Source: Clostridiales bacterium
GTDB lineage: Bacteria; Bacillota; Clostridia; Christensenellales; Borkfalkiaceae
Direction of reading: 5' to 3'
Length of the DNA stretch: 64,000 nt
NCBI GenBank assembly: GCA_015071005.1
Contig: SVIG01000004.1
Span: 62,001 to 126,000, forward strand
The first letter of the stretch is position 1, and each line of letters opens with the position of its first letter. The notes below the pieces were generated by a model, which was not told where the DNA came from, did no database searches, and saw only the letters and a list, made by a program, of their open reading frames with translations. This document shows, in pieces, positions 1 through 57,005 of the stretch. The translations under genes were made by a program, and so were the position numbers.

Positions 1-430
1 CGTTGCGAAGATAGGCATAAAAATCGTTAAGCTCGTCGCCTGTGATTTCTTTTAAGGGAATGCCCAGTTTTTGGAAATACTTTGCAATGCGTGTATCCGC
101 CATTAACTTATAGTTGTTATAGGTTAGGACGGATAAATTGCCTTTGTAGCCGTCCAGCCATTCGGCGACGTACTTATCGACGGTGCATTCGGCGAGTCTG
201 CGCTTTTCCCGTTCGGCGTGCGTCATATTCGCATATAGATACATATCTTCGCTGTTGTACTGTGCAACGACTTCCATCAAACGGTGATTCGCTTCCGTTT
301 TGTTGCCGCGTTTTACGTCCAGATGTAGGTTTTGCCACTTTTCCTTTCTCTTTCCGCTCATATCATAAAGATTGATGACGGCGTACCATTTTCCATTTTT
401 TTCGGTCAAACGACCTGTGATTCTTTTCAT
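1..430 (-). CDS. Tyrosine recombinase/integrase, N-terminal part (cut by window edge)
   Basis: About 143 residues of a tyrosine site-specific recombinase are visible; the protein would integrate and excise the mobile element. The ATG (complement of 428-430) follows an AAGGAGG ribosome site. The first 60 residues (opening MKRITGRLTEKNGKWYAVIN) match the arm-type DNA-binding domain of element integrases. They lead into a SAM-like core-binding domain (for example CTVDKYVAEWLDGYKG near residues 80-95). The catalytic domain with its Arg/His/Arg/Tyr residues is outside the window, so activity cannot be judged. It is the last gene of a minus-strand set mobC-relaxase-excisionase-integrase, 19 nt after the excisionase-like gene. 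Family assignment is good; the exact subfamily is not determined. Confidence 0.85.
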   Translation of the reverse strand, partial: MKRITGRLTEKNGKWYAVINLYDMSGKRKEKWQNLHLDVKRGNKTEANHRLMEVVAQYNSEDMYLYANMTHAEREKRRLAECTVDKYVAEWLDGYKGNLSVLTYNNYKLMADTRIAKYFQKLGIPLKEITGDELNDFYAYLRN

Positions 431-449
431 AATTTGTTTTTCCTCCTTG

Positions 450-770
450 TTAATTTATTTTTTCTAATTTGGTCGTATCGCCATCGGCAATCACACGATA
501 GCACATTTTCGTTTGAAAGTCCAGACTTTTTCGGGACGATTTGGGACATTTGCGGTTATTTTTTTCATAAAGTTTTTCACCCATCAGGAAAGCGACCAAA
601 CGAGTTTTGGGAACGAGAATTTTCCCCGCCAATTGAATGGTTGACAGCTTGCCTGTTTTTGCCAATTCGTAAGCTTTGTTCTTGCCAATGCGAAGCACCT
701 TTGCCGCTTCGGGAACGGTGAGTACCTCGGGATAATCTTTTAACATACTATAACATTTTCTTTCCGTCAA
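450..770 (-). CDS. Excisionase-like helix-turn-helix protein
   Basis: A 106-residue protein whose first 60 residues form a winged-helix excisionase-type (HTH_17) domain. The pattern is EVLTVPEAAKVLRIGKNKAY followed by a polar segment and IQLAGKILVPKTRLVAFL. Such proteins bind element ends and steer the integrase toward excision. The start is TTG (complement of 768-770), chosen because AAGGAGG lies seven bases upstream, in the end of the relaxase gene. The C-terminal 40 residues are basic and look disordered. The position between relaxase and integrase supports the role. A second, distinct excisionase-like gene occurs at 56388-56651. Confidence 0.75.
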   Translation of the reverse strand: MTERKCYSMLKDYPEVLTVPEAAKVLRIGKNKAYELAKTGKLSTIQLAGKILVPKTRLVAFLMGEKLYEKNNRKCPKSSRKSLDFQTKMCYRVIADGDTTKLEKIN

Positions 771-782
771 TTTTTTTCCTCC

Positions 783-2243
783 TTATAATTTGATTTCTTG
801 TTCATTGTCGGATTCGATTTCGTTTTCATTTTCTAAATTTTCTTCTTCCGTGTGTGCCTTTTTGAGTGCGAGTGATATACCGACGGCGGTGAGAGTAAGT
901 GCGGCTGCAAGGTTTCCGCTTGCTTCTCTTGCCCGTTCTTCCGCTTCTCGTTCTTCGGGTGTTTTTCCATCATTACCCATACCCATGGTCGAGATTAACC
1001 CTGCAGAGCCAGCCAGAAGAATACCAGCGCGAGAGGGAACAGAGAGCAGATTAGGCTTGTCCAAAACATTACCTTTTCTCGTTTGTCCGTTCGCTGCACC
1101 AGAGAAGTATATTCCTCGTTCAGCTTCCCAACCTGTTTTGCGTATTCCGCTTGCGTTTGCCGAAAGGCTTTGTCCGTCTGTTCTTGTAGATTCCTGATGT
1201 GTCCGCGCATCTCCAGGTTGAGTCCGCTGACCGATTTCTCTACCTGATTCAACGCCGTTTCCGTCCTCGAAAAGAACTTGCGACTGTGCATTTCCATCTC
1301 GTCCGTCAGCGCTTGCATTTGCCCCAGCGTCGCTATCAGGGAGTTCCATTCTTCTTCCGTCAACAAGACCAGGGGTATCTCGTTTTGCGTTTCTTCCTCG
1401 TTTGGTTTGTACATGTCCGTCATCTCGTCCAGCGAGAATTTCTTGCCTTTGTCTGAACTCATCTTCCATTACCTCCTTTAAATATTTTTCGCCCGAGAGC
1501 TTATCGTCATTGCATTTGCGGTAAGCTCCGTTTTTGTATTTAGGTTCTTTGAAACAAGTGTAGGTTATATTTTTTCTACCGCGCTCCCAGCGAACGCCGT
1601 AGCCCATATTCTTCATTCGTAAAATAAATTCTTCTTGCGAAGCGCAACGCTCCATCGCGTACTTAATGGACGCACGTAAACGGAATTTCCAACTCTCTCG
1701 CTTTACTCCCGAACGGTATTCCCTTGACGAGATAGATTTCGTTTGTCCGTTCTCGTAAGGCGTGAGCACAGAGAGACGATGCTCGGTGCAGACCTCGTCG
1801 TTTATCTTCCGCAGCCGTTCTATGTTTTGTCGGTCTTCGTGTAATTTCTTTCCCGTTTCCGTATGCACCGTGTCGATGACAAAGTGATTGTGAATGTGAT
1901 CTCTGTCGCTGTGCGTTGCAACGAGTACGCCGTAGCCAGGCCACGCGCGTTTGGCAAACTCTAAACCGATTTCGTTCGCTTGGTCGGGCGTTATCTTTTC
2001 ATCGGGATGAAAGGACTGTACGTAATGCCGAAAGCACAAACCTTTTTCTTTATTCCAAACGGCTTTGTTCGTCATGAACTCTTGGTAGGCAAATTTCGGT
2101 GTGCAGTTTTGTCCGCTGACTGCGTGTGCGTTTTCTTCGGGCTTTGTCTTTTCAGGATTAAGACAGTAGTTGATGACAGCTTTCATTCGAGAAGGGAGTT
2201 GGTCGGCTTGGTTTGTGTATTTGATTTTTGTTAGCGTTGCCAA
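783..2243 (-). CDS. MOBP-type relaxase (MobA/VirD2 family)
   Basis: A 486-residue relaxase, expected to nick oriT through a tyrosine and pilot the single strand during conjugative transfer. The likely catalytic Tyr26 sits in KAVINYCLNPEKT. The metal-binding histidine motif (HSDRDHIHNH) is at residues 111-120. The catalytic domain ends near residue 250. The remaining ~230 residues are low-complexity, rich in Gly, Asp, Arg and Ser, with a weakly hydrophobic segment near residues 445-460. The gene overlaps mobC by 13 nt (translational coupling). Much of its C-terminal half also encodes a second protein in another frame (995-1462), which probably explains the odd composition. No coupling protein or secretion genes are seen, so the element would depend on another element's conjugation machine. 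Confidence 0.85.
   Translation of the reverse strand: MATLTKIKYTNQADQLPSRMKAVINYCLNPEKTKPEENAHAVSGQNCTPKFAYQEFMTNKAVWNKEKGLCFRHYVQSFHPDEKITPDQANEIGLEFAKRAWPGYGVLVATHSDRDHIHNHFVIDTVHTETGKKLHEDRQNIERLRKINDEVCTEHRLSVLTPYENGQTKSISSREYRSGVKRESWKFRLRASIKYAMERCASQEEFILRMKNMGYGVRWERGRKNITYTCFKEPKYKNGAYRKCNDDKLSGEKYLKEVMEDEFRQRQEILAGRDDGHVQTKRGRNAKRDTPGLVDGRRMELPDSDAGANASADGRDGNAQSQVLFEDGNGVESGREIGQRTQPGDARTHQESTRTDGQSLSANASGIRKTGWEAERGIYFSGAANGQTRKGNVLDKPNLLSVPSRAGILLAGSAGLISTMGMGNDGKTPEEREAEERAREASGNLAAALTLTAVGISLALKKAHTEEENLENENEIESDNEQEIKL
995..1462 (-). CDS. Nested MobB-like mobilisation protein with C-terminal membrane segment
   Basis: A 155-residue reading frame lies wholly inside the relaxase gene in a different frame. 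Its ATG (complement of 1460-1462) has a near-perfect AAAGGAGGT eight bases upstream, which a chance shadow frame would not be expected to have. The protein is acidic at the N-terminus (residues 1-30). It then shows a long heptad-like helical region (about 35-125; repeated Leu/Met with Glu/Gln/Lys) and ends in one hydrophobic segment (about 131-152; MFWTSLICSLFPLALVFFWL). In ColE1 and RSF1010/R1162, mobB is likewise encoded inside the relaxase gene in another frame, and RSF1010 MobB has a membrane segment. Assignment as a MobB analogue is by architecture and position, not by clear sequence similarity. Confidence 0.7.
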   Translation of the reverse strand: MSSDKGKKFSLDEMTDMYKPNEEETQNEIPLVLLTEEEWNSLIATLGQMQALTDEMEMHSRKFFSRTETALNQVEKSVSGLNLEMRGHIRNLQEQTDKAFRQTQAEYAKQVGKLNEEYTSLVQRTDKREKVMFWTSLICSLFPLALVFFWLALQG

Positions 2244-2557
2244 TCTTTTGCTCCTTTCCGAGCAAGCTGTCGGAGCTCTTCATAGGTCTGTTGTAAAACC
2301 TCATTTGTTTCCGCGAGCGAAATCGCCTCAATTTTGCCCAAATGCGCCAGCCTCGTCAGTTGGTTTAGGTTGTTTCCAATTCGCCGTAATTCGGCGAGCA
2401 ACGGCGTCAAATCGTCGATTACCGTGATGCGTTTACCTATGGCGCACGCCACGAGAAAATCGGTGCGGTTCATGCCTGCTTTTGTTGCCTTGGTATCGAT
2501 TGTCGTTAGTTCTTTTTCGGTTACCCGAATAGGTATGGAAATGCTTCTTTTTCTCAA
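2231..2557 (-). CDS. mobC: MobC relaxosome accessory protein
   Basis: A 108-residue protein of the bacterial mobilisation (MobC) family, which binds near oriT and helps the relaxase open the nick site. The N-terminus has a ribbon-helix-helix-like pattern (RSISIPIRVTEKELTTIDTK). The C-terminal part carries the family signature LRRIGNNLNQLTRLAHLGKI. I place the start at TTG (complement of 2555-2557), because AAGGAG lies just upstream and the family homology begins there. An earlier ATG at 2737 would add 60 unrelated residues read through the palindromic region. The 3' end overlaps the relaxase start by 13 nt. Confidence 0.85.
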   Translation of the reverse strand: MRKRSISIPIRVTEKELTTIDTKATKAGMNRTDFLVACAIGKRITVIDDLTPLLAELRRIGNNLNQLTRLAHLGKIEAISLAETNEVLQQTYEELRQLARKGAKDWQR

Positions 2558-2593
2558 ATAATAATTCTCCTTAAAAATATATTTTTTGTCCAA

Positions 2594-2738
2594 CTTGCGT
2601 CCCTGTGGACGGTAGGGGTGCGGGTTACTCCCGCTTGATGTGCGTTGGCGGATAGCCACGCGCTCTGCTTGCCACAGCAAAGCTGTGAAATGGGTAGCAG
2701 AAAAACTTTGGGGTTGCGCCCTTATGCAGGGACGCAAG
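2594..2738. other. Candidate oriT / mobC control region
   Basis: This non-coding stretch upstream of mobC is dense in palindromes. A perfect 12-bp inverted repeat, CTTGCGTCCCTG (2594-2605) and CAGGGACGCAAG (2727-2738), frames three hairpins. They are CGTCC-ctgt-GGACG (2598-2611), GCGGG-ttact-CCCGC (2620-2634) and CACAGC-aaa-GCTGTG (2673-2687). Mobilisable elements usually carry oriT as inverted repeats just upstream of mobC/relaxase, so this is the best oriT candidate. The nick site is not identified. From 2740 to about 2890 I see no further gene or signal; the right edge of the mobilisation module may lie there. Confidence 0.55.
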
Positions 2739-2889
2739 GGACGGAAAAAACGGAAATTTTGCGGGCACGGTTTTTTGCGTCTTATACGGCACTTTCGTCA
2801 CTTTCGTCGGCAGAAGGAAGGTACCATGTCTTGATGTATCGTTTTCCGTTGCTCCGTCCGCTCGTGAAAAAGACGTTGTTTTCTTCTAG

Positions 2890-3246
2890 TGTGTACCGCC
2901 ATTTGTTCGTCTCTTCCACTCTACGTATACAATAAACTTTAATTTGTTAAAAGGTGACTATTCATTTACTGGTGGTACTTATAATTATTCCGCAACGTGT
3001 ACGGGCGTTACTTCGACCTTATCCGCAGATACTGGTCTTAGCAGAAGCGCAACGGAATTCTACAACGAATTGATAGCGGGCGGTATGATAAAGCCTAGTG
3101 AACAATCTACCTTTAATACGACGGAAAAATTGTCGCTTGGTTGGGTTCAAACCTTCTATAGGAATGATGGAACAACTTCTTTCAGGAACGCTAACTGCGT
3201 TTGCGAAATCAGCGCGTCGCCGTTTGTAAACTGGGGCGTGTTCTAA
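2890..3246 (+). pseudogene. 3' fragment of a repeated gene of unknown function, copy 1
   Basis: The reading frame runs open from a stop at 2887 to TAA at 3244-3246 but has no credible start codon or ribosome site. From about 2906 onward it encodes the same tail as 5896-6241 (RLFHSTYTINFN..., then ...TTEKLSLGWVQ... and the last residues SPFVNWGVF), at roughly 85-90% nucleotide identity by eye. The protein is Thr/Ser-rich with conserved Cys in SATCTG and NCVCEIS; I do not recognise the family. Because the upstream sequence differs between the two copies and starts abruptly, this looks like a gene end left by duplication or recombination. It is followed by a strong terminator and then the GH94-like gene. 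Confidence 0.5.
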
Positions 3247-3390
3247 ATTCAAAACATAACAAAATCCCACCCCTGCAATTTTTTGCAGTGGTGGGGAAAT
3301 TTTGTGCGTATATAAAGAGGATTTTTGCTGGGTAATTATGAAAACTGAGAGAAAAAATAATAGTTTTTACGAATTTGAAGATAAAAACAG
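2906..3390 (+). repeat. Left copy of a long direct repeat flanking the GH94-like gene
   Basis: The order gene tail, GC-rich terminator, then 5' end of the GH94-like gene (GGTAATTATGAAAACTGAG onward) is found here and again at about 5894-6480. The tails are nearly the same length. The terminator stems differ in sequence but occupy the same place. The first ~15 codons of the GH94-like gene recur at 6430. This shows that a unit of about 3 kb was tandemly duplicated and the second unit later truncated. Confidence 0.6.
3265..3303 (+). terminator. Rho-independent terminator after repeat-gene copy 1
   Basis: TCCCACCCCTGCAA and TTGCAGTGGTGGGGA form a long stem around a TTTT loop, followed by AAATTTT. 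It separates the gene fragment from the GH94-like gene. Confidence 0.75.
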
Positions 3391-5713
3391 GGAGATAATC
3401 TTTAAACGCCATGATATGCCATCGCCTTGGATGAATTATCTCACGAACGGTGAAATGTTTACGATGATTTCGCAGGCAGGAGGCAATTTATCGTGGTATA
3501 AATCGCCGCAAATTTGGCGTATTGGTAAATATAATTTTTATAATTTGCCAGTGGATATTAACGGGTTATTTCTTTATATCAAAGATTTGTCGACGGGCAA
3601 GGTTTGGAATCCTACGTTTATTCCCTGTAACGAAACGCTCGATTTTTGGCGTTCGGCACACGGGCTTGGTTACACGCGCTTTGAAGCGGAAAAGGGTGGA
3701 CTAAAAGTAGACCTGACCTGCTTTATCGGGAAAGACAACGTCCTTGTGTATAAAGCAAATATCTTGTCGCAGACAGCGCGGAAAGTGCAGATTTTTGCGT
3801 GTCAAGAAATGGGTTTGATGCAATATTTGCGTGAAGTACAATGGCAATGCTACGTGAAGAACAGCAACAATATTTTGTACAATGCACAAAACGATGCGTT
3901 GGTGTACGAATATTTCCCTGACGGACAGCCCCGTCCCGAAGAAACGCCGTTTGTATATTTTACGGCAGATAAAAAATCAAGTTCGTATAGCGGCAGTCGG
4001 CAAGATTTTATCGGTTATTACCGTGACTTGAAAAATCCTGTTGCGGTTGAAAATGGCTCGTGTGGAAATCAGGAATTAAAAGGCGGAGAAGCGATGTTCT
4101 CACTGTCGTTTGATTTGGATTTGCAACCGACAAAAGCGGAAAGTTTGAACGTTTATCTCGGTACGATTGGACAAACGGACGATTTAACGGAAACATTAAC
4201 GAGATTAAAAACGACTGCTTATTCTGAAAAAGCATTGAATGACTTAAAAGAATATTGGGATAAGCGTCTTTCTCGGTATCAAGTTTCCATACCTGATGCG
4301 GATTGCGCGCGGATGATGAATACGTGGAATCCTTTGCAGGCATTGGTGAACTTTTACGTATGCAGAGAAATTTCGTTTTATGCGACGGGTACAGTGCGCG
4401 GGGTAGGGGTCCGCGACGCTTCGCAGGATATTTTGGGAAATCTCTTGTATGATTTAAAGAAGTCGAAAGAAAAACTCAAATTGATTATATCGCAACAATA
4501 TAATTGCGGAAAAACAGTACATTATTTTTACCCTGAAGAAAAAAATCCGCCACTTTTAAGCGACCGCAGTGATAATCATTTGTGGATGATTTATACGGCG
4601 TATCAAATTGTTATGGAAGAGGGGGATACGGGCTTTTTAGATGAAATTGTACCCTATTTTGATGGCGGTAAAGGGACGATTTGGGGGCATTTAAACCGTT
4701 CCATTGAATTTACTTTGGCGAATTTGGGGGGGAATGGCTTGCCTTTGATGCTTGGCTCGGATTGGAACGATATGCTTTCCAATGTATGCAAGAAAGGAAA
4801 GGGAGAGAGTGTTTTCGTTTCGCAAATGCTAGTATTGGCTTGCAAGCAAATGAAAGAATTGAGCGCTTATTACGATAAAGGGAAAGGGGGGCTTGATTAT
4901 GATAAAGTGATATGCGAGCAAGAAAAAATATTGAATGACCTTTGTTGGGACGGGGAATGGTTTATACGTGCCGTTACGGACGAAGGGCGTAAACTTGGGG
5001 TAAAAGGCGAGGCTTGTGCAGAGCTTTGGATTAACTCCCAAAGCTGGGCCGTTTTGTCAGGAAGTACGACAAAGGATAGGGGCATGTCTGCGATGAATGC
5101 TGCAATGGAACGTTTGGATTGTGGTTATGGCTTAATGAAATTGTATCCACCCTTGCAAAGAAATTATCCATCCAAGGAGAACGAACTGACCTTTGCTCAA
5201 CCTGGGATTGGCGAAAACGGCGGCGTATTTTGTCACGCCAATGCGTGGGCAATTATTGCGCAATGTATGCTTGGAAACAACAATGAAGCTTATAAAATTT
5301 ATAAGGATATGATTCCGCATAATATCGTAAAGAAATTTGGTGTGGATTTATACAATGCAGAACCGTATGTTTATGCATCTAATATTCGTGCACCGATGGC
5401 GCTTTCGGCAGGACAAGCAGGTGTTTCTTGGTTGTCTGGTACTGCGGCTTGGATGACGGTTGCCGTTCAGCAGTACATTTTCGGTTTGAAACCGACGATG
5501 GAGGGATTGGAAATAAGTCCTTGTATTCCCGACGAATGGGAAATGGTAAAAATTAAACGATTGTTTCGCCATTGCGTGTTTGATATAACAATAGACAATC
5601 GAGCAAGAAAAGGAAATATGGTTAAAGATATTTTCGTAAATGGCGAGAAACATTACGGGAACATTGTGCGATCCCAAGGGGAAAAATTACAGATTATCGT
5701 AGTGATGGGCTAA
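3338..5713 (+). CDS. GH94-like glycoside phosphorylase (cellobiose-phosphorylase family)
   Basis: A protein of about 791 residues related to GH94 phosphorylases, which split beta-linked disaccharides with phosphate to give a sugar 1-phosphate. The N-terminal beta-sandwich domain (about 1-270) is followed by an (alpha/alpha)6 barrel. Family landmarks are RGVGVRDASQD (about 365-375), LGSDWNDM (472-479, containing the catalytic aspartate region), INSQSWAVLSG and ENGGVFCHANAWA. There is no signal peptide, so it acts in the cytoplasm. I chose ATG 3338 because homology-like sequence starts there and the same start context is copied at 6430. The ribosome site is weak, and a TTG/GTG near 3302 is an alternative. 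It stands alone between repeats and may feed the large locus downstream. The true disaccharide is unknown. Confidence 0.8.
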   Translation: MKTERKNNSFYEFEDKNREIIFKRHDMPSPWMNYLTNGEMFTMISQAGGNLSWYKSPQIWRIGKYNFYNLPVDINGLFLYIKDLSTGKVWNPTFIPCNETLDFWRSAHGLGYTRFEAEKGGLKVDLTCFIGKDNVLVYKANILSQTARKVQIFACQEMGLMQYLREVQWQCYVKNSNNILYNAQNDALVYEYFPDGQPRPEETPFVYFTADKKSSSYSGSRQDFIGYYRDLKNPVAVENGSCGNQELKGGEAMFSLSFDLDLQPTKAESLNVYLGTIGQTDDLTETLTRLKTTAYSEKALNDLKEYWDKRLSRYQVSIPDADCARMMNTWNPLQALVNFYVCREISFYATGTVRGVGVRDASQDILGNLLYDLKKSKEKLKLIISQQYNCGKTVHYFYPEEKNPPLLSDRSDNHLWMIYTAYQIVMEEGDTGFLDEIVPYFDGGKGTIWGHLNRSIEFTLANLGGNGLPLMLGSDWNDMLSNVCKKGKGESVFVSQMLVLACKQMKELSAYYDKGKGGLDYDKVICEQEKILNDLCWDGEWFIRAVTDEGRKLGVKGEACAELWINSQSWAVLSGSTTKDRGMSAMNAAMERLDCGYGLMKLYPPLQRNYPSKENELTFAQPGIGENGGVFCHANAWAIIAQCMLGNNNEAYKIYKDMIPHNIVKKFGVDLYNAEPYVYASNIRAPMALSAGQAGVSWLSGTAAWMTVAVQQYIFGLKPTMEGLEISPCIPDEWEMVKIKRLFRHCVFDITIDNRARKGNMVKDIFVNGEKHYGNIVRSQGEKLQIIVVMG

Positions 5714-5743: not shown

Positions 5744-6241
5744 TTGCAAAGAATTGTGGCTATATGTAAACCATTCCACAGCAAGTACGTGCGTAGCAAA
5801 ACGTGGTATCAATATTGTGTAACGGCGAAAGGCATGGTAGTTGCAGATTCTGTTTGCGCAAAGAGAATACAGGTAGAATCTTGGTTCCCTGAATATGCTC
5901 TTCGTCTCTTCCACTCTACGTATACGATAAACTTCAATTTAGTTAAAGGCGACTATTCGTTTAGTGGTTTTACTTATAATTATTCTGCAACGTGTACGGG
6001 CGCGACTTCGACATTGTCCGCAGATACAGGTCTTAGCAGAAGCGCAGCGGAATTCTACAATGAATTGATAGCGGGCGGCATGATACGCCCCAGTGAACAA
6101 TCTACCTTTAATACGACGGAAAAATTGTCGCTTGGTTGGGTTCAAGAATTCTATAGGAATGACGGAAAAACGGTTTTCAAAGGTGCTAACTGCATTTGCG
6201 AAATCAGCGCGTCGCCGTTTGTAAACTGGGGCGTGTTCTAA
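5744..6241 (+). pseudogene. Repeated gene of unknown function, copy 2 (probably a 3' fragment)
   Basis: An open frame of up to 165 codons whose last ~115 codons match copy 1 (2906-3246). Its first ~50 codons are unrelated to the sequence upstream of copy 1. The only start available is TTG 5744, with no ribosome site, so the frame is probably the end of a once longer gene rather than a complete one. Shared features are FHSTYTINFNLVKGDYSFSG, a Cys pair (SATCTG / NCICEIS) and the terminal SPFVNWGVF. Function unknown. It immediately follows the GH94-like gene and is closed by a strong terminator. Confidence 0.45.
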
Positions 6242-6260
6242 ATTTAAAACAAAATAAAGT

Positions 6261-6300
6261 CCCGCCCCCGCCTGCAAAGGAGGGGGCGGGAAGCCTTTTA
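6261..6300 (+). terminator. Rho-independent terminator after repeat-gene copy 2
   Basis: CCCGCCCCC (6261-6269) pairs perfectly with GGGGGCGGG (6282-6290), followed by AAGCCTTTT. It occupies the same position as the terminator after copy 1. From 6300 to 6430 I see no gene. Confidence 0.75.
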
Positions 6301-6495: not shown

Positions 6496-6588
6496 AATAG
6501 ATTTTCTACCGTGTCTATGTATTCAAATAAATCCTTGATGTCGATGGAATACTGCCGAGTTTTCTTGCCGTTGTTTTTACGTTTTAAT
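6488..6588 (-). pseudogene. Fragment of the helix-turn-helix gene found intact at 55849-56391
   Basis: Read on the minus strand, this stretch encodes KNNGKKTRQYSIDIKDLFEY, nearly identical to the middle of the 180-residue protein at 55849-56391. It has no start, no C-terminal half and only drifted sequence after that. It is a decayed copy. Confidence 0.55.
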
Positions 6589-6695: not shown

Positions 6696-7166
6696 ATGAC
6701 ATTAAAAGAATTGAGAATTAAAAAAGGATTAACGCAACTTGTGTGTGCGCAATTTTTAGGAGTTTCTCTACGCACGTATATCCGCTATGAATCAGATGAC
6801 AATAAAGCAAATACTTTAAAATATCGGTATATGCTTAAAGAGCTGGAAACATACGGCTATATAGACGAGCAACATGGCGTATTAACGGTAGAATCTATTA
6901 AAAATATTTGTGCGGAAGTTTTTGAACGCTATGAAGTAGAATATTGCTATCTGTTTGGTTCTTATGCGAAAGGAAAGGCAACGGAAACTAGTGATGTAGA
7001 CTTATTGATTGCCACGCCTTTAAACGGATTGCAATTCTTTGAATTGGTGGAAACTTTAAGAGAAAAGCTTTGCAAAAAGATAGATGCGCTTCACCAAACG
7101 CAGCTCAACAATAACTTGGAACTCACACAAGAAATCTTAAAGGATGGGATAAAGATTTATGGATAA
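6696..7166 (+). CDS. mntA: MntA-type antitoxin: XRE helix-turn-helix fused to minimal nucleotidyltransferase
   Basis: A 156-residue antitoxin of a HEPN/MNT pair. Residues 1-55 form an XRE-type HTH (LKELRIKKGLTQLVCAQFLG). Residues about 68-150 form a minimal nucleotidyltransferase with the signature GSx10DxD: Gly88-Ser89 and Asp100/Asp102 (GSYAKGKATETSDVD). In characterised HepT/MntA systems this enzyme neutralises the toxin by AMPylating a tyrosine in the toxin. The ATG follows AGAGGTGG and the gene overlaps hepT by 8 nt, ensuring coupled synthesis. The fused HTH suggests direct autoregulation. Confidence 0.85.
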   Translation: MTLKELRIKKGLTQLVCAQFLGVSLRTYIRYESDDNKANTLKYRYMLKELETYGYIDEQHGVLTVESIKNICAEVFERYEVEYCYLFGSYAKGKATETSDVDLLIATPLNGLQFFELVETLREKLCKKIDALHQTQLNNNLELTQEILKDGIKIYG

Positions 7167-7497
7167 TACGAAAAACAATCAATATTATATTGATAAAATT
7201 CTTACTGATTTAAAGTTTGTTATTGACCATACACAGGGCAAAACGCAACAACAAATCGAAGGCGATGACTTATTGGTAGACTCCATCATGTTTCGTGTAA
7301 TCCAAATTGCAGAAAATAGCATGAAGTTGGATGAAGAGTTCCAAAAGAAGAATAGCCATATTCCTTGGCGTGCAATTCGTGGTATGAGAAATATGATTGT
7401 CCACAACTATGGAGCTGTGGATTTAGCGATTGTATATGATACGGTTGCTAATAGTATTCCCGAGCTCTATCGGATGTTGAGCAGTGTAACGTTTTAA
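7159..7497 (+). CDS. hepT: HepT-like HEPN ribonuclease toxin
   Basis: A 112-residue all-helical HEPN-domain (DUF86) protein. It has the complete RX4HXY motif, Arg77, His82 and Tyr84, in RNMIVHNY. Members cut RNA, and the tyrosine is the site AMPylated by MntA in studied pairs. It overlaps the antitoxin by 8 nt and is followed by a terminator at 7545. Intact key residues suggest a working system, which may stabilise the surrounding island; that role is an inference. Confidence 0.85.
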   Translation: MDNTKNNQYYIDKILTDLKFVIDHTQGKTQQQIEGDDLLVDSIMFRVIQIAENSMKLDEEFQKKNSHIPWRAIRGMRNMIVHNYGAVDLAIVYDTVANSIPELYRMLSSVTF

Positions 7498-7544
7498 TAA
7501 AATCTATTTTTCATCAAGGACATGGTATAGGGATTTTAGCAAAA

Positions 7545-7582
7545 AACACCTGTAAAGCGCAAGGCTTTGCAGGTGTTTTTGT
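7545..7582. terminator. Terminator between hepT and the HTH pseudogene
   Basis: AACACCTG (7545-7552) and CAGGTGTT (7570-7577) flank a second inner stem (AGC/GCT) and are followed by TTTGTTTT. A similar hairpin with the same preceding sequence (CATGGTATAGGGATTTTA) occurs at 55809-55842, so this block is duplicated together with the HTH gene. Confidence 0.7.
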
Positions 7583-7583
7583 T

Positions 7584-7975
7584 TTATTGTTGATTGTAAA
7601 ACTTTTGCAGTAGGCGCAGGTGGACGTTGGACTTGCGGATAATGCAGTGTCCGTGGCTGACGAAAAACTTGATAAGCCATTCTTTGGTGGTGAGAACCTT
7701 TGCTTGCGCCCATAGACATTGTAGCTTCTTTTTGTAAGTCCATTTTTGTACGCTCGATAAGGCGTAGCCCGTTATCACGGCGACTTCGTCTAGGCGTAGT
7801 AAGTTGTTGACAGAAAGCCATTCGTTTTCCAACCATTGCGCAAAATCTTCGGGCGTGGTAAGTGAAATGCAGGCTCCACGGCTTGTCGGCTGGAAAAGAT
7901 ACCGCAGGGCAGACATAAGGTTTCTGCCGTTTCTATGTATTCAAATAAATCTTTGAAGTCAATGGAATAGTTAGC
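7584..7975 (-). pseudogene. Frameshifted copy of the helix-turn-helix gene at 55849-56391
   Basis: The C-terminal ~130 codons of the intact gene at 55849-56391 are recognisable, but in two frames. NYSIDFKDLFEYIETAETLC lies in one frame, and from about 7865 the match continues in another (EDFAQWLENEW, then LLRLDEVAVITGYALSSVQK). No N-terminal third and no start are present. The shift near 7865 and the missing 5' end make it non-functional. Confidence 0.7.
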
Positions 7976-47555: not shown

Positions 47556-48665
47556 ATGAATTATTCGGCACTCGAAGAGCATATTGAAAATATTAGAAAG
47601 GAAGTAGGCGTTCCTTATCTTGATGTGGTGTGTTATAAGGAACATAAAGAGATATTCCGTTATCTCTCGGGGGAAAGCACCACAGGGAAAGAACAACTGT
47701 ATATGTATTCTTGCGGAAAGCCTATTACAGTCGCTTCTGCATTAAGATTGGTGGAAATTGGGAAATTATCACTGGAAGACAAAGTTTGTTTCTATCTCCC
47801 AGAGATAAAAAACGCATTTATTATTAACAACAATGGCGAAAAAGAGTATGTCGGGGAAACAATGACGGTACGTCATCTTTTTACTATGACGGCAGGGTTT
47901 ACCCATGATATTTATAAACCGCCCGTTTTGCAACTTATAAAAGAGAGTCAAGGTAAGGCAACCCTTCGGGATTTTATCCCGAAATTTATAGAAACGCCTC
48001 TTGCGTTTGCGCCAGGTGAAAAATATATGTATGGTATCAACCATGACATTTTGGCGGCTGTTATTGAAGTGGTTACGGGAAAGAAATTCTCCGAGTATGT
48101 TAAGGAGGAGATTTTTGACCCCTTGCGAATGAAATTCTCCCGTTTTGATAATGGGGAAGAAAATATGGCAGATGTTTATTGGGCGGATGAAAATGGCGGT
48201 GTACGTCGTATTGTGGAAGATAAATTTTTAATTCTTACGCCCGCCTATGAAAGCGGCGGGGCAGGATTGGCTTCTACGGTGGAAGATTATATTCGTTTTG
48301 CCGATGCTTTGGCGTGTGGCGGTATTGCCGCAAACGGCTATCAAGTCTTAAGTAAAGAAATGCTGCAACAACTTACATCCGAGCAGTTAAAAGATATTTC
48401 CATTAGCAATAATTTTGCTTGCGTACAAGGCGGAGATTACGGTTATGGTTTGGGTGTTCGCATAAGACAAAAGCCAACCGATTGGGGCTTAAATAGAGGC
48501 GAATTTGGTTGGGATGGTGCAGCTGGCTCGTACGTTATGATGGATCCAGAAAACAAGGTGTCTATTTTTATCGGTTTGCATTTGCGAAATTGGCCCGTCG
48601 CTTTTATGGGGAAACATTTGCAAATCGTTGAAAAAATGTACAAAGTATTGAGACTATCCCAGTAA
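47556..48665 (+). CDS. Serine hydrolase of the beta-lactamase/esterase (family S12) fold
   Basis: A 369-residue protein with the S12 fold. The SxxK nucleophile motif is Ser-Cys-Gly-Lys (YMYSCGKPITVASAL, about 50-64). A YxxN-like segment follows (KYMYGINHDILAAVIEVVTG, about 152-171). LASTVEDYIRFADALACGG and the terminal region GEFGWDGAAGSYVMMDPENK are typical of the class C / EstB-like group. No signal peptide, which argues against a penicillin-binding role and for a cytoplasmic esterase removing acyl groups from sugars. It begins 2 bases after the GH78 stop. Confidence 0.75.
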   Translation: MNYSALEEHIENIRKEVGVPYLDVVCYKEHKEIFRYLSGESTTGKEQLYMYSCGKPITVASALRLVEIGKLSLEDKVCFYLPEIKNAFIINNNGEKEYVGETMTVRHLFTMTAGFTHDIYKPPVLQLIKESQGKATLRDFIPKFIETPLAFAPGEKYMYGINHDILAAVIEVVTGKKFSEYVKEEIFDPLRMKFSRFDNGEENMADVYWADENGGVRRIVEDKFLILTPAYESGGAGLASTVEDYIRFADALACGGIAANGYQVLSKEMLQQLTSEQLKDISISNNFACVQGGDYGYGLGVRIRQKPTDWGLNRGEFGWDGAAGSYVMMDPENKVSIFIGLHLRNWPVAFMGKHLQIVEKMYKVLRLSQ

Positions 48666-50697: not shown

Positions 50698-50709
50698 GGA
50701 GTGAAATAA

Positions 50710-51561: not shown

Positions 51562-51608
51562 TATTTAAGAAACAAAAGCAATACTTGTTGATAAGGAGAA
51601 AAATATAT

Positions 51609-51656
51609 TTGCGGTGGAAGAAAGACCGCGTAGAGCTGCTTGTAAAAAGCAGCAAT
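51609..51656 (+). repeat. 48-bp double-hairpin repeat, copy A
   Basis: Forty-eight bases identical to 55439-55486. Two hairpins lie side by side: GCGGT-ggaagaaag-ACCGC and GCTGCTT-gtaaa-AAGCAGC. No T-run follows, so it is not a standard terminator. An orphan AAGGAG stands about 14 bases upstream. In this copy the repeat abuts the remains of a GH28-like gene. Confidence 0.8.
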
Positions 51657-51918
51657 AATTGCGGTTTGACGGAAAGTCTTTTGGGAAATATCACGCTTAG
51701 AAATGTGCATTTAAAGCTTGACGGCGGCGTAAGGGAATATAAACGTGAAGTGCCTGAAGAGGCACAGGACTATCCTGAAGTTTTTGTGTATGGACGAATA
51801 TTGCATGCGAATATATTTTAGACATATTAATGGATTGACTCTTGATAATGTAACGGTACAAACATGCCGCGGTGATGTAAGAGAAGATTGTGTCTTTGAT
51901 GAGGTTATTCAAAAATAA
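51657..51918 (+). pseudogene. C-terminal remnant of a GH28-like beta-helix gene
   Basis: From just after the repeat, one frame reads GLTESLLGNITLRNVHLKLD and continues to FVYGRILHA. After a frameshift near 51818 the match resumes as YFRHINGLTLDNVTVQTCRG up to TAA 51916-51918. This is the usual end of GH28 proteins (a variant of 'YGxYxRHxxGLTLxNV'). The N-terminal ~80% is missing. The remnant shows that the locus once held a further GH28 gene here. Confidence 0.65.
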
Positions 51919-51936
51919 ACAGACGAGGAAAAACAT

Positions 51937-52641: not shown

Positions 52642-52654
52642 AGGAGAAAGAAAA

Positions 52655-53602
52655 ATGAATTTTAATTCGACGGTAAAAGGCAGTGCATTAGAAGGTTTTT
52701 ATCCCGCAGGTTGGGATTTCGATAAAATTGACGCGTGTGTTGACGCGCCTGAAAAAATTACGGAAAGCCAAGCGCATTGGAATGCAGGTTTCACGCCCGT
52801 GCAATGTGAAAGTCTTGGCGAATTTGAAACGTACATGGGACATGAAATTGCCATGCAAATCAAGCTTGCAAAAGACAGAAAGGAAAAGATTGCGTTTATT
52901 CTTCCCGTAGGTCCTATGGGTATGTATAAATGGGTGGTATATTTCCTTAAAGAATGGAAAGTTTCCTGTGAACACGTTTATACATTTAATATGGACGAAT
53001 GGGCGGACAGTGAGGGGAACACGCTTGCTCCCGATAATTCGGGCGCGTTCCAATACGCAATGGAACAAGCGCTTTTCACCCCCCTTGGCGAATTGACTGT
53101 ACCTAAAACGCAACGAAATTTTGCAACTAAAGAAAACCTGCCTACTTATCCCGAAAAGATTGCCGCTTTAAAGGCGGAAGGCGCAAAGCTTGTGCTTGTT
53201 TACGGTATCGGCAGAATGTGTCATATCGCATTTTGGGAACCCACGTTTGCGGCGGATTATGCTACGGCAGAAGAATGGGAAAAAGCTCCTTATAGAATTG
53301 CGGCGAAAATTCATCCCTTGACGGTGGAACAAAACGCATTGACGAGCTTTAAATCAAGAACGACGCTTGTGCCTTGTAGAGCAAACACGATAGGACCTGG
53401 CTTATTCTTGCAGGCAGATTATGCCATCGGCGGTGCAGACGGTACGCTTGGGCGCGGTATGCAATGGCAAGGTATGTCTTTGTGGATGACTTTGCGCTAT
53501 GGCAAAACGCCTTGGATTACTTCGTCCTACATTCCTACCCTTGCAGGTAGATTGTTCTTCTTGAAAGAGCTTGCAGGTCCACTTGTTGCGGAATGTAACT
53601 AA
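52655..53602 (+). CDS. NagB-like (glucosamine-6-phosphate deaminase-related) protein with altered active site
   Basis: A 315-residue protein of the NagB/RpiA-like sugar isomerase fold, longer than NagB (266). The substrate loop is FNMDEWAD (Asp114, equivalent to NagB Asp72). The motif that reads GxDGHIAFNEP in NagB is here [13 protein letters not shown] (184-196). The histidine (190) and glutamate (195) are kept, but the aspartate equivalent to Asp141 is Met188. So ring-opening/deamination by the NagB mechanism is doubtful, and a different isomerisation or deamination is likely. AAAGGAG precedes the ATG. It follows a deacetylase by 13 bases and precedes a kinase by one base. Confidence 0.8.
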
Positions 53603-53603
53603 T

Positions 53604-54560
53604 ATGAAGAGTGGTATTGCAGTAGCTGGAACGATACTCGTTGACGAAATCAACGAAATTTCCGCATACCCCAATGCAGGGGAGTTGACGAAAATTAAGA
53701 GCATACAAAAATCAGTAGGCGGTTGTGTGCCGAACGTAGCGATTGACCTCAAGCGACTTTGCTCTAATTTGATTGTAAAAGCGGTAGGAAAAGTCGGCAC
53801 GGACGAAAATGGCGAATATGTCAAGGAAGTACTTTCTAAGAATGGTGTAGACATTGACAATATTGCGGTCGGCGTAGACAAGACGAGTTTTACCCAAGTA
53901 ATGAGTGTTACAGGCGGTCAGCGTACTTTCTTTACATATGCAGGTGCAAGTGCGGATTTCGGTGAAAAAGATGTAGATATATCCTCATTGAATATAAAAA
54001 TGCTCCATTTGGGCTATTTCTTATTGCTTGATAAAATCGACAGCAGTGATGGAAAAAAACTCCTTAAAAAGGCTCAGGAAGAAGGAGTGAAAACTTCCAT
54101 CGACCTTGTTAGCGAAAACTCGGATAGATATTCGTTGGTTGTGCCTTGCTTGAAATACGTAGATAATTTAATTATTAACGAAGTAGAAGCTGGGAAAATT
54201 TGTGGAATTGAACCGCGTTTGCAAAATCTACCTGAAATCGCAAAAACATTGAAATATATGGGTGTAAGTGAACGTGTTATCATTCATACCCCCGATTTAG
54301 GGCTTTGCTGTGGCGAGAACGGTATGAGTATGGTACATTCGTACAAGCTTCCCGACGGCTATATTAAAGGTACAACGGGGGCGGGCGATGCCTTTTGTGC
54401 TGGCGCGCTTTTAGGTATTCACGAAGAGTTATCCGATGTGGATATTTTGAATATGGCAACGGTTGCGGCAACGGGCGCATTGAGTACTGCTGACGCAACA
54501 AGTGGGTTGAAACCCTATGAGAAATTGAAAGAAATTTGTAAAGATTTCAAAAGGAAATAA
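53604..54560 (+). CDS. PfkB-family sugar kinase
   Basis: A 318-residue ribokinase/PfkB-type kinase. The N-terminal GIAVAGTILVDEI and SVGGCVPNVAIDLKRL segments bind the sugar. The C-terminal signature GTTGAGDAFCAGALLGI (about 255-271) holds the anion hole and catalytic Asp. ATG 53604 lies one base after the previous stop; the longer frame from 53571 would overlap that gene and is not needed. By context it phosphorylates a ketose for the next enzyme, as tagatose-6-phosphate or fructose-6-phosphate kinases do. KDG kinase is an alternative. Confidence 0.85.
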   Translation: MKSGIAVAGTILVDEINEISAYPNAGELTKIKSIQKSVGGCVPNVAIDLKRLCSNLIVKAVGKVGTDENGEYVKEVLSKNGVDIDNIAVGVDKTSFTQVMSVTGGQRTFFTYAGASADFGEKDVDISSLNIKMLHLGYFLLLDKIDSSDGKKLLKKAQEEGVKTSIDLVSENSDRYSLVVPCLKYVDNLIINEVEAGKICGIEPRLQNLPEIAKTLKYMGVSERVIIHTPDLGLCCGENGMSMVHSYKLPDGYIKGTTGAGDAFCAGALLGIHEELSDVDILNMATVAATGALSTADATSGLKPYEKLKEICKDFKRK

Positions 54561-54563
54561 GAT

Positions 54564-55415
54564 ATGTTAGTAAATTTGAAAGAGATTTTGAAGATTGCGG
54601 AAGAAGATAAGAGTGCTATCGGTATGTTCAACGCCACGGGGTTTGACAGTTTACAGGCGGTAATCGCTGCGGCAGAAGAACTCAATAAACCCGTAATTAT
54701 TGCACATGCAGAAGTACATAACGTGTATAATGACATCTCGATGGTAGGTCCTGCGATGGTGGCGGTAGCGCAAAATGCGAAAGTGCCCGTATGCGTTCAT
54801 CTCGACCATGGTACATCCCTTGATATGGTTTACAAGGCTTTGCGCCTTGGTTTTACGTCTGTTATGATGGATGCTTCGGCTCTCCCTTATGAGGAGAATT
54901 TACGTTTGACGAAGATGATTACAGAGGCTGCGCATTCCATGAACGTGAGTGTGGAAGCAGAGCTTGGCAGACTTGTAACGGGCGAGGCTGGAAGCGGTGA
55001 AGAAATGGTTGGTGCGAAAGCGGAAGATTTCTACACTCGTCCTGACGAAGCGGAAGCATTCTGCAAGGCTACGGGAATTGATGCTTTGGCGATTGCATTC
55101 GGTACGGCACACGGTTTTTATTCAGCTCAACCGAAGCTTGACTTCGACGTTGTAAAGAATTGTGCGAAAGCGACGGGTTTGCCCCTTGTAATGCACGGCG
55201 GTAGCGGTGTAAGCGAAGAAGGGTTCAAAAAGGCAATCGTAAATGGTATCCGTAAGATTAACTACTATTCGTATATGTCGAAAGCAGGCTATATGGCGGC
55301 AAAATCTGCAATTGAGAGCGGCAAGACGAGCTACTTGCACGACGTAGAATACGCAGCGATGCAAGCGATGAAAGAAGACGTTAAAAAGACCATTTCTATA
55401 TTTAGCAATAAATAA
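54564..55415 (+). CDS. Class II ketose-bisphosphate aldolase (KbaY/FbaA type)
   Basis: A 283-residue zinc aldolase that would split a ketose 1,6-bisphosphate into dihydroxyacetone phosphate and an aldehyde. Zinc and substrate residues are visible in VHLDHGTSL (about 78-86), SVEAELGRL, FGTAHGFY and VMHGGSGVS. It begins 3 bases after the PfkB kinase. With the deacetylase, NagB-like protein and kinase it completes a route like that of galactosamine/tagatose breakdown. This is the last gene of the 46-kb array. Confidence 0.88.
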   Translation: MLVNLKEILKIAEEDKSAIGMFNATGFDSLQAVIAAAEELNKPVIIAHAEVHNVYNDISMVGPAMVAVAQNAKVPVCVHLDHGTSLDMVYKALRLGFTSVMMDASALPYEENLRLTKMITEAAHSMNVSVEAELGRLVTGEAGSGEEMVGAKAEDFYTRPDEAEAFCKATGIDALAIAFGTAHGFYSAQPKLDFDVVKNCAKATGLPLVMHGGSGVSEEGFKKAIVNGIRKINYYSYMSKAGYMAAKSAIESGKTSYLHDVEYAAMQAMKEDVKKTISIFSNK

Positions 55416-55438
55416 AGGAGAAAAGGAGATATTAAAAA

Positions 55439-55486
55439 TTGCGGTGGAAGAAAGACCGCGTAGAGCTGCTTGTAAAAAGCAGCAAT
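55439..55486 (+). repeat. 48-bp double-hairpin repeat, copy B
   Basis: Identical to 51609-51656; see that entry for the structure. It lies 24 bases after the aldolase stop, again behind AAGGAG. The sequences before and after the 48 bases are unrelated between copies. From 55487 to 55551 nothing else is seen. Confidence 0.8.
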
Positions 55487-55551
55487 CATCGGCTGATGGG
55501 AATGCAACGAAGTGAATAAAAGAAACACCTATGGAGTAATGTTGAATAAAT

Positions 55552-55734
55552 ATGGATGAAGGGAAATGGCTGTATTGTCCTAAGTGCAATAAAAAGACAA
55601 GAGTAAAAGTATATGAACAGACAAAAATGGAAAATTTCCCTTTGTTTTGTCCGTGGTGTAAAACAGAAACTGTTGTTAATGTTAAAAATTATACGCTTGT
55701 AGTTGTTTTTAATAACCAAAAAGAACAAACGTAA
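55552..55734 (+). CDS. Cysteine-rich KTR-type small zinc-ribbon protein
   Basis: A 60-residue protein with two CxxC pairs, WLYCPKCNKKTRVKVYEQTK and LFCPWCKTETVVNV. This is the layout of the 'cysteine-rich KTR' family, often carried by conjugative elements of Bacillota. It should bind one zinc. Function unknown. The ribosome site (GGAG) is far from the ATG. It sits among accessory genes next to the probable integration junction. Confidence 0.7.
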   Translation: MDEGKWLYCPKCNKKTRVKVYEQTKMENFPLFCPWCKTETVVNVKNYTLVVVFNNQKEQT

Positions 55735-55808
55735 AGGCTAAAAATTATTATAGAATCGTGCTATATATAGCCGTTCATCACGTACATGGTATAGGGATTT
55801 TAATAAAA

Positions 55809-55842
55809 AGCATCTGCGAAGCGAGAGCTTTGCAGATGCTTT
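55809..55842. terminator. Bidirectional-type hairpin before the HTH gene
   Basis: AGCATCTGCGAAGC and GCTTTGCAGATGCT form a long stem around GAGA, followed by TTGCTTT. It stands between two convergent genes (KTR and the HTH protein) and matches the block at 7545-7582. Confidence 0.7.
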
Positions 55843-55848
55843 GCTTTA

Positions 55849-56391
55849 TTATTTAGAATAATATTTTTGCAGCAGGCGTAGATGGACGTCGGATTTACGG
55901 ATAATACGATGTCCGTGACTGACAAAAAATTTGATGAGCCATTCTTTGGTGCTGAGAACCTTTGCTTGCGCCCATAGACATTGTAGCTTCTTTTTGTAAG
56001 TCCATTTTTGAACGGCGGATAAGGCGTAGCCCGTTATCACGGCGACTTCGTCTAAGCGTAGTAGGTCGTTCACGGAATGCCATTCGTTTGCCAACCATTG
56101 CACAAAATCTGCAGGTGGTGGCAAGTGAAATGCAGGCTCAACAGCATGTCGGCTTGAAAAGATACCGCAGGGCAGACATAAGGTTTCTGCCGTTTCTATG
56201 TATTCAAATAAATCTTTGATGTCGATGGAATACTGCCGAGTTTTCTTCCCGTTATTTTTGCACTTGATATAGCCGTTTGCGAGTAGCCAAGACGCTTTTC
56301 GTTTGCTGATATGCAGAATGCAACGGACGTTGTCAAGGGTGAGCTTTTTGGAATATTGCGCTCGCAGGGCTTTCTTTTCTTGCGTTGTCAT
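55849..56391 (-). CDS. Helix-turn-helix protein of unknown function (intact member of a repeated family)
   Basis: A 180-residue protein with an N-terminal HTH-like segment (LTLDNVRCILHISKRKASWL, 17-36), a middle part (YSIDIKDLFEYIETAETLC) and a second predicted HTH (LLRLDEVAVITGYALSAVQK, about 107-126). I do not recognise a named family; two DNA-binding helices suggest an accessory regulator or recombination directionality protein. Its start overlaps the end of the excisionase-like gene (ATGA, 56388-56391). Decayed copies lie at 6488-6588 and 7584-7975, showing that the left and right ends of the accessory region share ancestry. Confidence 0.65.
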   Translation of the reverse strand: MTTQEKKALRAQYSKKLTLDNVRCILHISKRKASWLLANGYIKCKNNGKKTRQYSIDIKDLFEYIETAETLCLPCGIFSSRHAVEPAFHLPPPADFVQWLANEWHSVNDLLRLDEVAVITGYALSAVQKWTYKKKLQCLWAQAKVLSTKEWLIKFFVSHGHRIIRKSDVHLRLLQKYYSK

Positions 56392-56651
56392 TTTGATTGC
56401 CTGCCTTTCCCGATGGAGAAATGTTTGGGGCTTTCGTCGTCGCTGTGGTCGGCAAGATATTCGATAAGGTCAGCCTTGGCAATCAGGTACGAACCGCGGT
56501 AGTTGAACGCACGAAGTTCTTGTTTCTTGATAAGCTCGTAGATGCCGTTTTTACCGATGGGAGCGAAACGGCTTGCTTTTATGGGAGTTAAAATTTCGGG
56601 GCAGTTTTTGAACATGCGTTCAAGCTCTTGAATCTTTTCTTCTTTGGTCAT
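56388..56651 (-). CDS. Excisionase-like (HTH_17) protein near the integration junction
   Basis: An 87-residue DNA-binding protein with an excisionase-type winged helix (EILTPIKASRFAPIGKNGIY, then ELIKKQELRAFNYRGSYLIA, about 19-60) and a basic tail. I choose ATG (complement of 56649-56651), preceded by AAGGAAG; a TTG at 56672 would add seven residues. It overlaps the next gene by 4 nt. It faces away from a tRNA-half/attachment site about 300 bases away, where such genes are usually found. No integrase gene is adjacent, so it may be the leftover of an element or may serve the integrase at the far left. Confidence 0.7.
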   Translation of the reverse strand: MTKEEKIQELERMFKNCPEILTPIKASRFAPIGKNGIYELIKKQELRAFNYRGSYLIAKADLIEYLADHSDDESPKHFSIGKGRQSK

Positions 56652-56746
56652 TTTTTTATCTTCCTTATTCAAAATTTGCCGATGACGATACGGAAGAATT
56701 GAGAAAATTTATTGTTTTTTAAAAGTGGTTTTTTCTTTCTTATTTC

Positions 56747-56776
56747 TTGACAAGTAAATAGGCTATGTGATATAAT
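56747..56776 (+). promoter_or_regulatory. Consensus sigma-70 promoter next to the junction
   Basis: A perfect TTGACA (56747-56752) and perfect TATAAT (56771-56776) with an 18-base spacer read rightward toward the tRNA half and metK. A GAGGAG follows, with only a few-codon frame (ATGAGGAGTAAATAA). The region 56652-57076 holds no other gene. Confidence 0.7.
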
Positions 56777-56821
56777 GAAAAAAAAATAATGAGGAGTAAA
56801 TAAGGATAGAGGAAAGGCTCC

Positions 56822-56854
56822 TTTTTCTCGCATTTTTCTCGCATTTTTCTCGCA
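56822..56854 (+). repeat. Three tandem 11-bp direct repeats (TTTTTCTCGCA)
   Basis: Three exact head-to-tail copies at 56822-56832, 56833-56843 and 56844-56854. Two further related inverted-type copies (TGCAAAAAA) follow at about 56859-56879. Short tandem repeats 70-130 bases from a tRNA-type core are typical integrase arm-binding or excisionase-binding sites. Confidence 0.75.
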
Positions 56855-56949
56855 AAAATGCAAAAAACGTGCAAAAAAGGGCGATTTTTGGGGTAAAAAC
56901 CCACACGATTAGTGAGTGTTAGGGACGAAACGGGAAATGCTGTCAATTT

Positions 56950-57005
56950 CTTGAAAACCGTTTGGGTGAAAGCCCACGGGGGTTCGAATCCCTCTTCCTG
57001 CGCCA
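56950..57005 (+). other. 3' half of tRNA-Ser(UGA): probable attachment-site core
   Basis: The sequence contains an anticodon loop CTTGAAA (UGA anticodon), a long variable arm (TGGG...CCCA), a T-arm GGGGG-TTCGAAT-CCCTC, an acceptor 3' strand TTCCTGC, discriminator G and encoded CCA. The matching 5' half (acceptor GCAGGAA, D-arm, anticodon 5' stem) is absent upstream. The break falls in the anticodon loop, where many tyrosine integrases cross over. It therefore marks the edge of an element integrated into a serine tRNA gene, with metK as the chromosomal neighbour. Confidence 0.75.

Follow-up and report, generated by a model that had tools for sequence, protein, structure and literature searches.

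The 64,000-bp stretch of Clostridiales bacterium DNA analysed here (the window; bases 62,001-126,000 of contig 1 in a genome of 1.69 Mb, 12 contigs and 93.86% completeness) is very probably the site of a 57,984-bp integrative mobilisable island that breaks the host gene for tRNA-Ser(UGA) and supplies a replacement for it. As sequence anatomy this arrangement is strongly supported: the split, the core, the single intact copy in the draft genome, the recurrence with matching anticodons and the stacking can all be read from the DNA. Its function would follow from established tRNA biology and a published phage case. The analysis also took in flanking sequence, 18 kb on the left side (L005) and 10 kb on the right (L006), and a window position equals the L005 position minus 18000.

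The split host gene and its proposed replacement

The 3' half of the split host tRNA-Ser(UGA) gene lies at 56949-57005 (+) and directly precedes metK, where the preliminary description, made from the window alone, had placed it. The 5' half is found about 1 kb left of the window (L005:16933-16972); its last bases, TCTTGAAA, lie in the anticodon loop and are followed by non-tRNA DNA. This 8-bp sequence is shared by the two halves and is the predicted crossover core, with its right copy at 56949-56956 (+) and its left copy at L005:16965-16972. When the halves are joined at the shared TCTTGAAA, they form an 89-nt tRNA-Ser(UGA) with paired stems that is letter-identical to uninterrupted genes in four congeners (L155, L156, L158 and L159). 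A search with the joined site in 57 genomes of the genus gave matches that stop at the core (query 340-342) in 13 genomes and matches that start at the core (332-334) and extend to the tRNA 3' end in seven, the island's own genome being included in both counts, while the remaining matched genomes include ones in which the match spans the whole tRNA. The halves are thus two sides of one gene, and the 57,984 bp of DNA between the cores are an insertion.

Putative arm sites of the integrase tie the two ends together. Three perfect 11-bp repeats of TTTTTCTCGCA are present at 56822-56854 (+), as described previously, and the arm motif TTTTCTCGCA has three exact copies at this right end, one exact copy at the left end (window position -931) and a further left-end copy with one mismatch (-942). 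The motif lies approximately 85-130 bp from the core at both ends, and no further exact copies of TTTTCTCGCA were found on either strand of 92 kb. Its presence at both ends is independent evidence that they serve one integrase. It is therefore well supported that the two ends bound one mobilisable island inserted in tRNA-Ser(UGA), and the link between them that the preliminary description had proposed is borne out by halves that join at the 8-bp core as in the congeners and by the arm motif. Neither junction was recognised as a tRNA by ARAGORN, which found the island copy alone, and Rfam also recovered only the island tRNA from L005 and the window. Copies of the core at 25293 and 53559, found in a search of the plus strand, were considered as internal attachment sites and rejected, as they have no tRNA-like context and are about as frequent as chance would give for an 8-mer in 58 kb (our own estimate). 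Since no tRNA remnants accompany them, they lend no support to a smaller nested unit with an end in the cargo.

The island copy is a complete, divergent tRNA-Ser(UGA) gene (L005:17101-17190) located between the core and the integrase, 128 bp from the 5' half. It differs from the host tRNA in the anticodon stem, variable arm and acceptor stem, is directly followed on its 3' side by a terminator, and has the integrase reading toward it. A full tRNA-Ser(UGA) beyond the integrase had been predicted in the preliminary description as the partner of the 3' half, with a match over the last 56 bases. The gene does exist, but the match covers the last 29 bases only, at 93%, and the true partner is the separate 5' half 128 bp further out. 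Among 41 tRNA matches in the draft genome, the replacement is the sole intact tRNA-Ser(UGA), the other serine tRNAs being CGA, GCT and GGA.

A perfect TTGACA-17-TATAAT promoter (12/12) precedes the dead 5' half, and no promoter was found between this half and the island tRNA. The promoter scan of this stretch returned one promoter-like site, against 0.7 expected at the threshold, and that one site matches 12/12. The transcription unit is likely composed of the promoter, the dead half, the arm region, the replacement tRNA and the terminator. A 258-bp stretch comprising the 5' half, arm region and replacement recurs at 95% identity in a congener (G242; L177, G242:C115:1-20000), where it adjoins phage-like genes (methyltransferases, terminase-like); the 37.8-kb contig in G242 contains no match to the window integrase at E 1e-5.

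We propose that the tyrosine integrase recombines the 8-bp core in the anticodon loop of the host tRNA-Ser(UGA) gene, and that integration would leave this gene as two dead halves. Instead of a tRNA 3' end that could mend this gene, the island would bring a whole tRNA-Ser(UGA) with its own terminator, and this tRNA would become the working copy of the cell, presumably both expressed and essential. Transcription from the host promoter ahead of the dead half most likely continues across the arm region and into the replacement, which RNases would then trim out of the transcript. Transfer of the island would probably depend on a helper conjugation system.

An intact junction of tRNA-Ser and metK in related genomes had also been anticipated, and this was not found in the congeners, where metK and an ABC-F gene stand in another order. 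Both the order and the orientation of the ABC-F gene (L005:13842-16827) and metK (window 57077-58240) differ there, a difference that points to a local inversion around the tRNA locus in the host lineage.

Related integrase loci and stacked halves

To place the window among its relatives, 71 integrase loci were compared, i.e., the window itself, 41 loci from a scan of a species-genome collection and 29 from a search of 301 family genomes. The former scan gave 42 loci, of which L092 (24% identity) was dropped before counting; the latter gave 30 places in 24 genomes, one being the window's own. Two of these 29, L096 and L102, apparently duplicate L076 and L077, respectively. In named records, relatives of the window integrase are mostly from Clostridia, and many come from gut or rumen assemblies.

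A full tRNA lies near the integrase end in 55 of the 71 loci, and 48 of these have at least 200 bp of upstream sequence and are evaluable. A truncated 5' half is found no more than 450 bp upstream of the full tRNA in 39 of the 71 loci (38 of the 48 evaluable ones and L104, which has only 171 bp), and the nearest half lies 33 to 252 bp before the full tRNA. All 46 halves agree in anticodon with the full tRNA beside them (Ser UGA/CGA, Arg ACG, Leu UAA/CAA). As a control, the same patterns were run on both strands of the other side of the integrases and gave no matches in 323,854 bp. The D-arm patterns were picked after inspection of these loci, so the count is not blind; the control used identical patterns. 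The 39 loci are also partly non-independent, as L069/L070 and the tRNA-Arg group L104-L109 are near copies. Cultured bacteria that show the layout include Caproiciproducens galactitolivorans YR-4 (L072) and Oscillibacter valericigenes Sjm18-20 (L053).

A sigma-70-like promoter was detected above the outermost half in 19 of the 39 loci, in a scan made without a shuffle control. Promoter capture may thus hold for many members of the group, including the window, and not for all. In a tree of the integrases (the 52 of 71 sequences with at least 240 aa) the target tRNAs cluster; long branches meet in this tree, and it does not fix the number of target switches.

In several loci, halves have accumulated. 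Oscillibacter valericigenes Sjm18-20 (L053) has four 5' halves ahead of the full tRNA; a 3' partner was found for one of the four, namely the last half, whose partner has a matching acceptor stem and lies 66 kb away. Two halves each are present in L054, L056, L059, L078 and L118. In L052, L067, L085 and L088 the tRNA adjoining the integrase is a 3' half only, as judged by eye, which would be the outcome of a later element splitting an earlier replacement. The stacked halves show that replacement tRNAs are split in turn. A congener (G120) contains a second complete element of approximately 42.1 kb with another arm sequence, whose halves join exactly.

Other loci appear to hold remnants. In G157, two 5' halves, one replacement tRNA and one 3' half are found within approximately 1.3 kb; the element has largely disappeared, and a C-terminal piece is what is left of the integrase. 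The replacement tRNA has been kept and thus outlasts its element, in keeping with a gene that the cell needs. In L077 the element tRNA has shrunk to about its last 20 bases, and in G114 (L158) an intact tRNA precedes the element's terminator and an integrase remnant of 41 aa. At loci of these two types, recombination between the two copies of the tRNA may have collapsed the element.

The replacement keeps the core of the half in 23 of the 29 serine loci compared and differs from it in six. The window is one of these six, with ATTTGAAA in the replacement and TCTTGAAA in the half. Two others, L069 and L070, are near copies, and in L082 the half is the one that departs. All five serine loci with more than one half belong to the 23 with a kept core. 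A changed anticodon-loop core may protect the spare tRNA from a repeat hit; the distribution fits this idea and does not prove it. Taken across the loci, chances appear evenly balanced that Clostridia islands, and not phages alone, form a large family which takes over essential tRNA genes by breaking them in the anticodon loop, that the spares, mostly with no recognisable promoter of their own (32/39), use the captured host promoter and serve as fresh targets, which would give rise to stacking, and that some core-changed spares, such as the one here, are perhaps protected.

A few loci are of interest in their own right. The replacement tRNA-Ser of L069 and L070 apparently has C for U at position 33 (TCCTGAAA loop), a position that is almost invariably U in tRNAs. 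Caproicibacter fermentans EA1 (L071) has a half-like sequence, CCTTCAAAATC, perhaps of a tRNA with anticodon UCA, next to a replacement tRNA-Ser(CGA). In a human faecal record (MT836101; L186), two tRNA-Ser 5' halves precede a full tRNA-Ser(CGA) and the integrase is 43% identical, so by its sequence the split-half layout is also present in human gut DNA. In an Enterococcus record (OR846594, 11748-17680; L188), a related integrase lies close to a tRNA-Lys(CTT)-like 5' half and has a full tRNA-Lys on its other side, possibly an instance of the same strategy.

Mobilisation genes, cargo and competing explanations

The mobilisation module described earlier at the left edge, with its integrase reading outward, is confirmed by Pfam matches. 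The tyrosine integrase (398 aa, minus strand, L005:17234-18430, i.e., window -766 to 430; Phage_integrase 4.1e-24) has only its N-terminal part in the window, at 1-430. It is followed, all on the minus strand, by an excisionase-like HTH_17 protein (450-770, 106 aa, 2.8e-10) with homologues in many related integrase loci, a MobA/VirD2-like relaxase (783-2243, Relaxase 1.1e-35) with homologues in nine related loci, and a NikA/MobC-like mobilisation protein (2231-2737, NikA-like 8.5e-22, MobC 5e-10) with homologues in the same nine. Neither a phage structural domain nor a type IV secretion domain or other conjugation apparatus was detected among the 40 proteins scanned with Pfam, a set without the open reading frames (ORFs) at 53571-55415 and small ORFs.

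At the right end are a helix-turn-helix (HTH) protein of 180 aa (55849-56391, minus strand), homologues of which are present at L067, at L088 and at the far Oscillibacter end (L154/L176), and an HTH_17 protein of 94 aa (56388-56672, minus strand; Pfam), whose best homologue outside this genome is in L088, close to its attR-like end. A truncated copy of the former gene is present at 7510-7969 (minus strand; 87% over 461 bp to 55774-56232), and a 76-bp piece of the same repeat also occurs at 6503-6578. The preliminary description had reported both related HTH-gene copies and a toxin-antitoxin pair near both ends. This holds for the HTH copies; the toxin-antitoxin-like pair, of MntA/HepT type (6696-7497, plus strand; Polbeta/NTP_transf_2 and HepT-like matches), was found near the left end only.

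Most of the island is cargo of approximately 46 kb, mainly glycan-related genes. The main block of mostly carbohydrate-use genes, assigned with Pfam, covers 8152-55415, of which the ORFs at 53571-55415 lie outside the scan. The families include an AraC regulator, KduI/IolB, SDRs, a pectate-lyase-like protein, GH67N/DUF4838, two alpha-L-rhamnosidases, esterase-like proteins, GH92, RpiB, a glycyl-radical enzyme with its radical-SAM partner, UxuA, PIG-L and a transporter permease; several ORFs have no Pfam match. Outside this block, a GH94 phosphorylase-like gene (3338-5713, plus strand; GH94 1.3e-106) lies between 369-bp direct repeats (89%; 2906-3273 and 5901-6268 by self-comparison). Two further proteins deserve mention. 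The region 28965-30310 consists of internal 0.7-kb repeats (94.5%) in a 937-aa protein with a Peptidase_M26_N-like match, and 47556-48665 encodes a beta-lactamase-family domain protein (PF00144) within the sugar-breakdown run, whose setting favours an esterase-type serine hydrolase over a resistance gene.

The GC content of the cargo is 41.6%, compared with 48.9% and 45.8% in the flanks. Homologues of the DUF4838 cargo protein (E 1e-40) are found in 34 of the 57 genus genomes, a count that includes its own genome, and the best one from another genome is only 43% identical, whereas the metK stretch has 77-88% DNA identity in congeners. Judged by this one gene, the cargo does not behave like the shared core genome.

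Three other explanations of the locus need to be weighed. In a canonical tRNA-site island, the element's attachment site (attP) holds the tRNA 3' end, so that the full tRNA would be the rebuilt gene and the right fragment its displaced 3' end. A full tRNA-Ser(UGA) beside the integrase and a far-end 3' fragment sharing 29 bp with it at 93% are in line with this. However, the right fragment joins exactly to a different sequence, the separate 5' half 128 bp beyond the full tRNA, which runs into non-tRNA sequence; the joined gene is intact in congeners, and the full tRNA differs from it in the anticodon stem, variable arm and acceptor stem. We find the canonical explanation extremely unlikely, and at the window locus the separate 5' half refutes it. 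Alternatively, an older canonical element could own the full tRNA while a different element split the neighbouring gene, which would make the replacement a tandem coincidence. Tandem or nested insertion is common here and the right-end HTH segment is duplicated, but half, arm region, full tRNA and integrase follow each other in the same order and with the same anticodon in 39 of 71 loci, and such a pair of events is very improbable. The third explanation concerns the cargo, as the glycan locus could be a later accretion or rearranged resident DNA between the tRNA halves and not integrase-borne. The 461-bp direct repeat (87%) of the right-end HTH gene, 7510-7969 and 55774-56232, brackets the main glycan cargo, and a 48-bp perfect direct repeat (51609-51656 and 55439-55486) surrounds approximately 3.8 kb at the right edge of the cargo; these repeats suggest stepwise assembly, with the 46 kb possibly added later. 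On the other hand, the cargo sits inside a gene that is uninterrupted in congeners, its GC content is below that of both flanks, and the one cargo protein tested has at most 43% identity elsewhere in the 57-genome genus set, compared with 77-88% for metK DNA. We consider this third explanation doubtful, and the 58 kb may or may not have travelled as one unit.

Apart from these repeats, several observations weigh against the proposed split and replacement. The replacement tRNA has a U-U mismatch in its anticodon stem. The draft genome is incomplete (93.86%, 12 contigs), and a second tRNA-Ser(UGA) could be among the missing genes; the 41 tRNA matches include no tRNA-Asn and no tRNA-Ile, so that the draft is without some tRNA genes, as expected of missing contigs. 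The search patterns see five anticodons only, and the agreement of 46 out of 46 thus mainly tests UGA vs CGA and isotype. In 10 of the 48 evaluable loci no half was counted beside the full tRNA: L051 and L073 have halves by eye, each interrupted by a D-loop insert, the half of L071 looks like another tRNA, five loci (L075, L077, L102, L081 and L091) lack a half but contain an intact tRNA that has a promoter-like sequence of its own, and L116 and L121 face tRNA-Tyr and tRNA-Trp, respectively. A further 16 of the 71 loci are without a full tRNA near the integrase. Among these, L055 has a half beside an N-masked tRNA, L052, L067, L085 and L088 are the loci with a 3' half noted above, L114 is at a contig end, and no tRNA was found near the integrase in L065, L066, L087, L089, L090, L098, L100, L110, L120 and L122, for some of which the sequence is short. 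Finally, a promoter-like site is present between half and full tRNA in 7 of the 39 loci, with L111 scoring 11/12.

Relation to known mobile elements

The closest parallel is tRNA-dependent lysogeny in actinobacteriophages, where a short core is used, the tRNA is not rebuilt and a phage tRNA of the same isotype is required (Guerrero-Bustamante and Hatfull 2024, mBio, PMC10865867). This and the following comparisons refer to the portions of the source papers cited. Both systems use a tyrosine integrase and an attachment site (attB) in a host tRNA gene, commonly in the anticodon loop. The core is 8, 10 or 11 bp in the phages and 8 bp here, the tRNA is left unrebuilt in both, and the isotype of the element tRNA equals that of the target, here tRNA-Ser(UGA) for tRNA-Ser(UGA). 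The authors speculate that the tRNA of a plasmid can act as a further attB (PMC10865867), and the natural stacks fit this idea. In contrast to the temperate phages, we have a relaxase-bearing island with its tRNA between core and integrase and, in the window, downstream of the host tRNA promoter. The targets here are mostly serine tRNAs, while the term tRNA-Ser does not occur in the main text of that paper. As no phage genes were found among the proteins scanned, the island is not a member of tRNA-dependent lysogeny as defined. One earlier Lactobacillus prophage is cited in the same work (PMC10865867), and phage-related sequences of Sinorhizobium have been discussed in its light (PMC11476347), whereas another Sinorhizobium study reports that features of tRNA-dependent lysogeny are absent in its prophages (PMC12429752). 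No description of a split and replaced tRNA gene in mobilisable elements or in Clostridia was found in the titles and abstract openings of the open-access papers that a literature search listed, a scope outside of which most subscription papers fall.

If the proposed reading of the island is right, a serine tRNA in these bacteria can belong to a mobile element. Orphan tRNA halves and surplus tRNA copies next to integrases might be explained in this way, and tools that presume a rebuilt target tRNA may misplace the ends of such islands. It also becomes testable whether a short anticodon-loop core together with a captured promoter suffices for safe insertion into a needed gene.

The island shares a tyrosine integrase, a tRNA target and a fragment at the far end with the tRNA islands of the Islander collection, part of which have an anticodon-centred crossover (PMC4383910). 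By the Islander rule, the attP fragment restores the target gene; here the host gene is unrestored. Like integrative mobilisable elements (IMEs), it has an integrase, a relaxase, MobC and adaptive cargo, and lacks a conjugation apparatus in the proteins scanned, but IMEs with tyrosine integrases mostly leave the target gene undisrupted (PMC5704250), and here the tRNA is disrupted and replaced. In this respect it resembles the Vibrio cholerae island in recA, which enters an important gene and brings its own, divergent recA (PMC4405046). The Vibrio case concerns a protein gene, while here tRNA genes are involved across an integrase family. Collectively, these comparisons suggest that an integration strategy described for phages extends to a mobilisable island with metabolic cargo and to many related Clostridia integrases.

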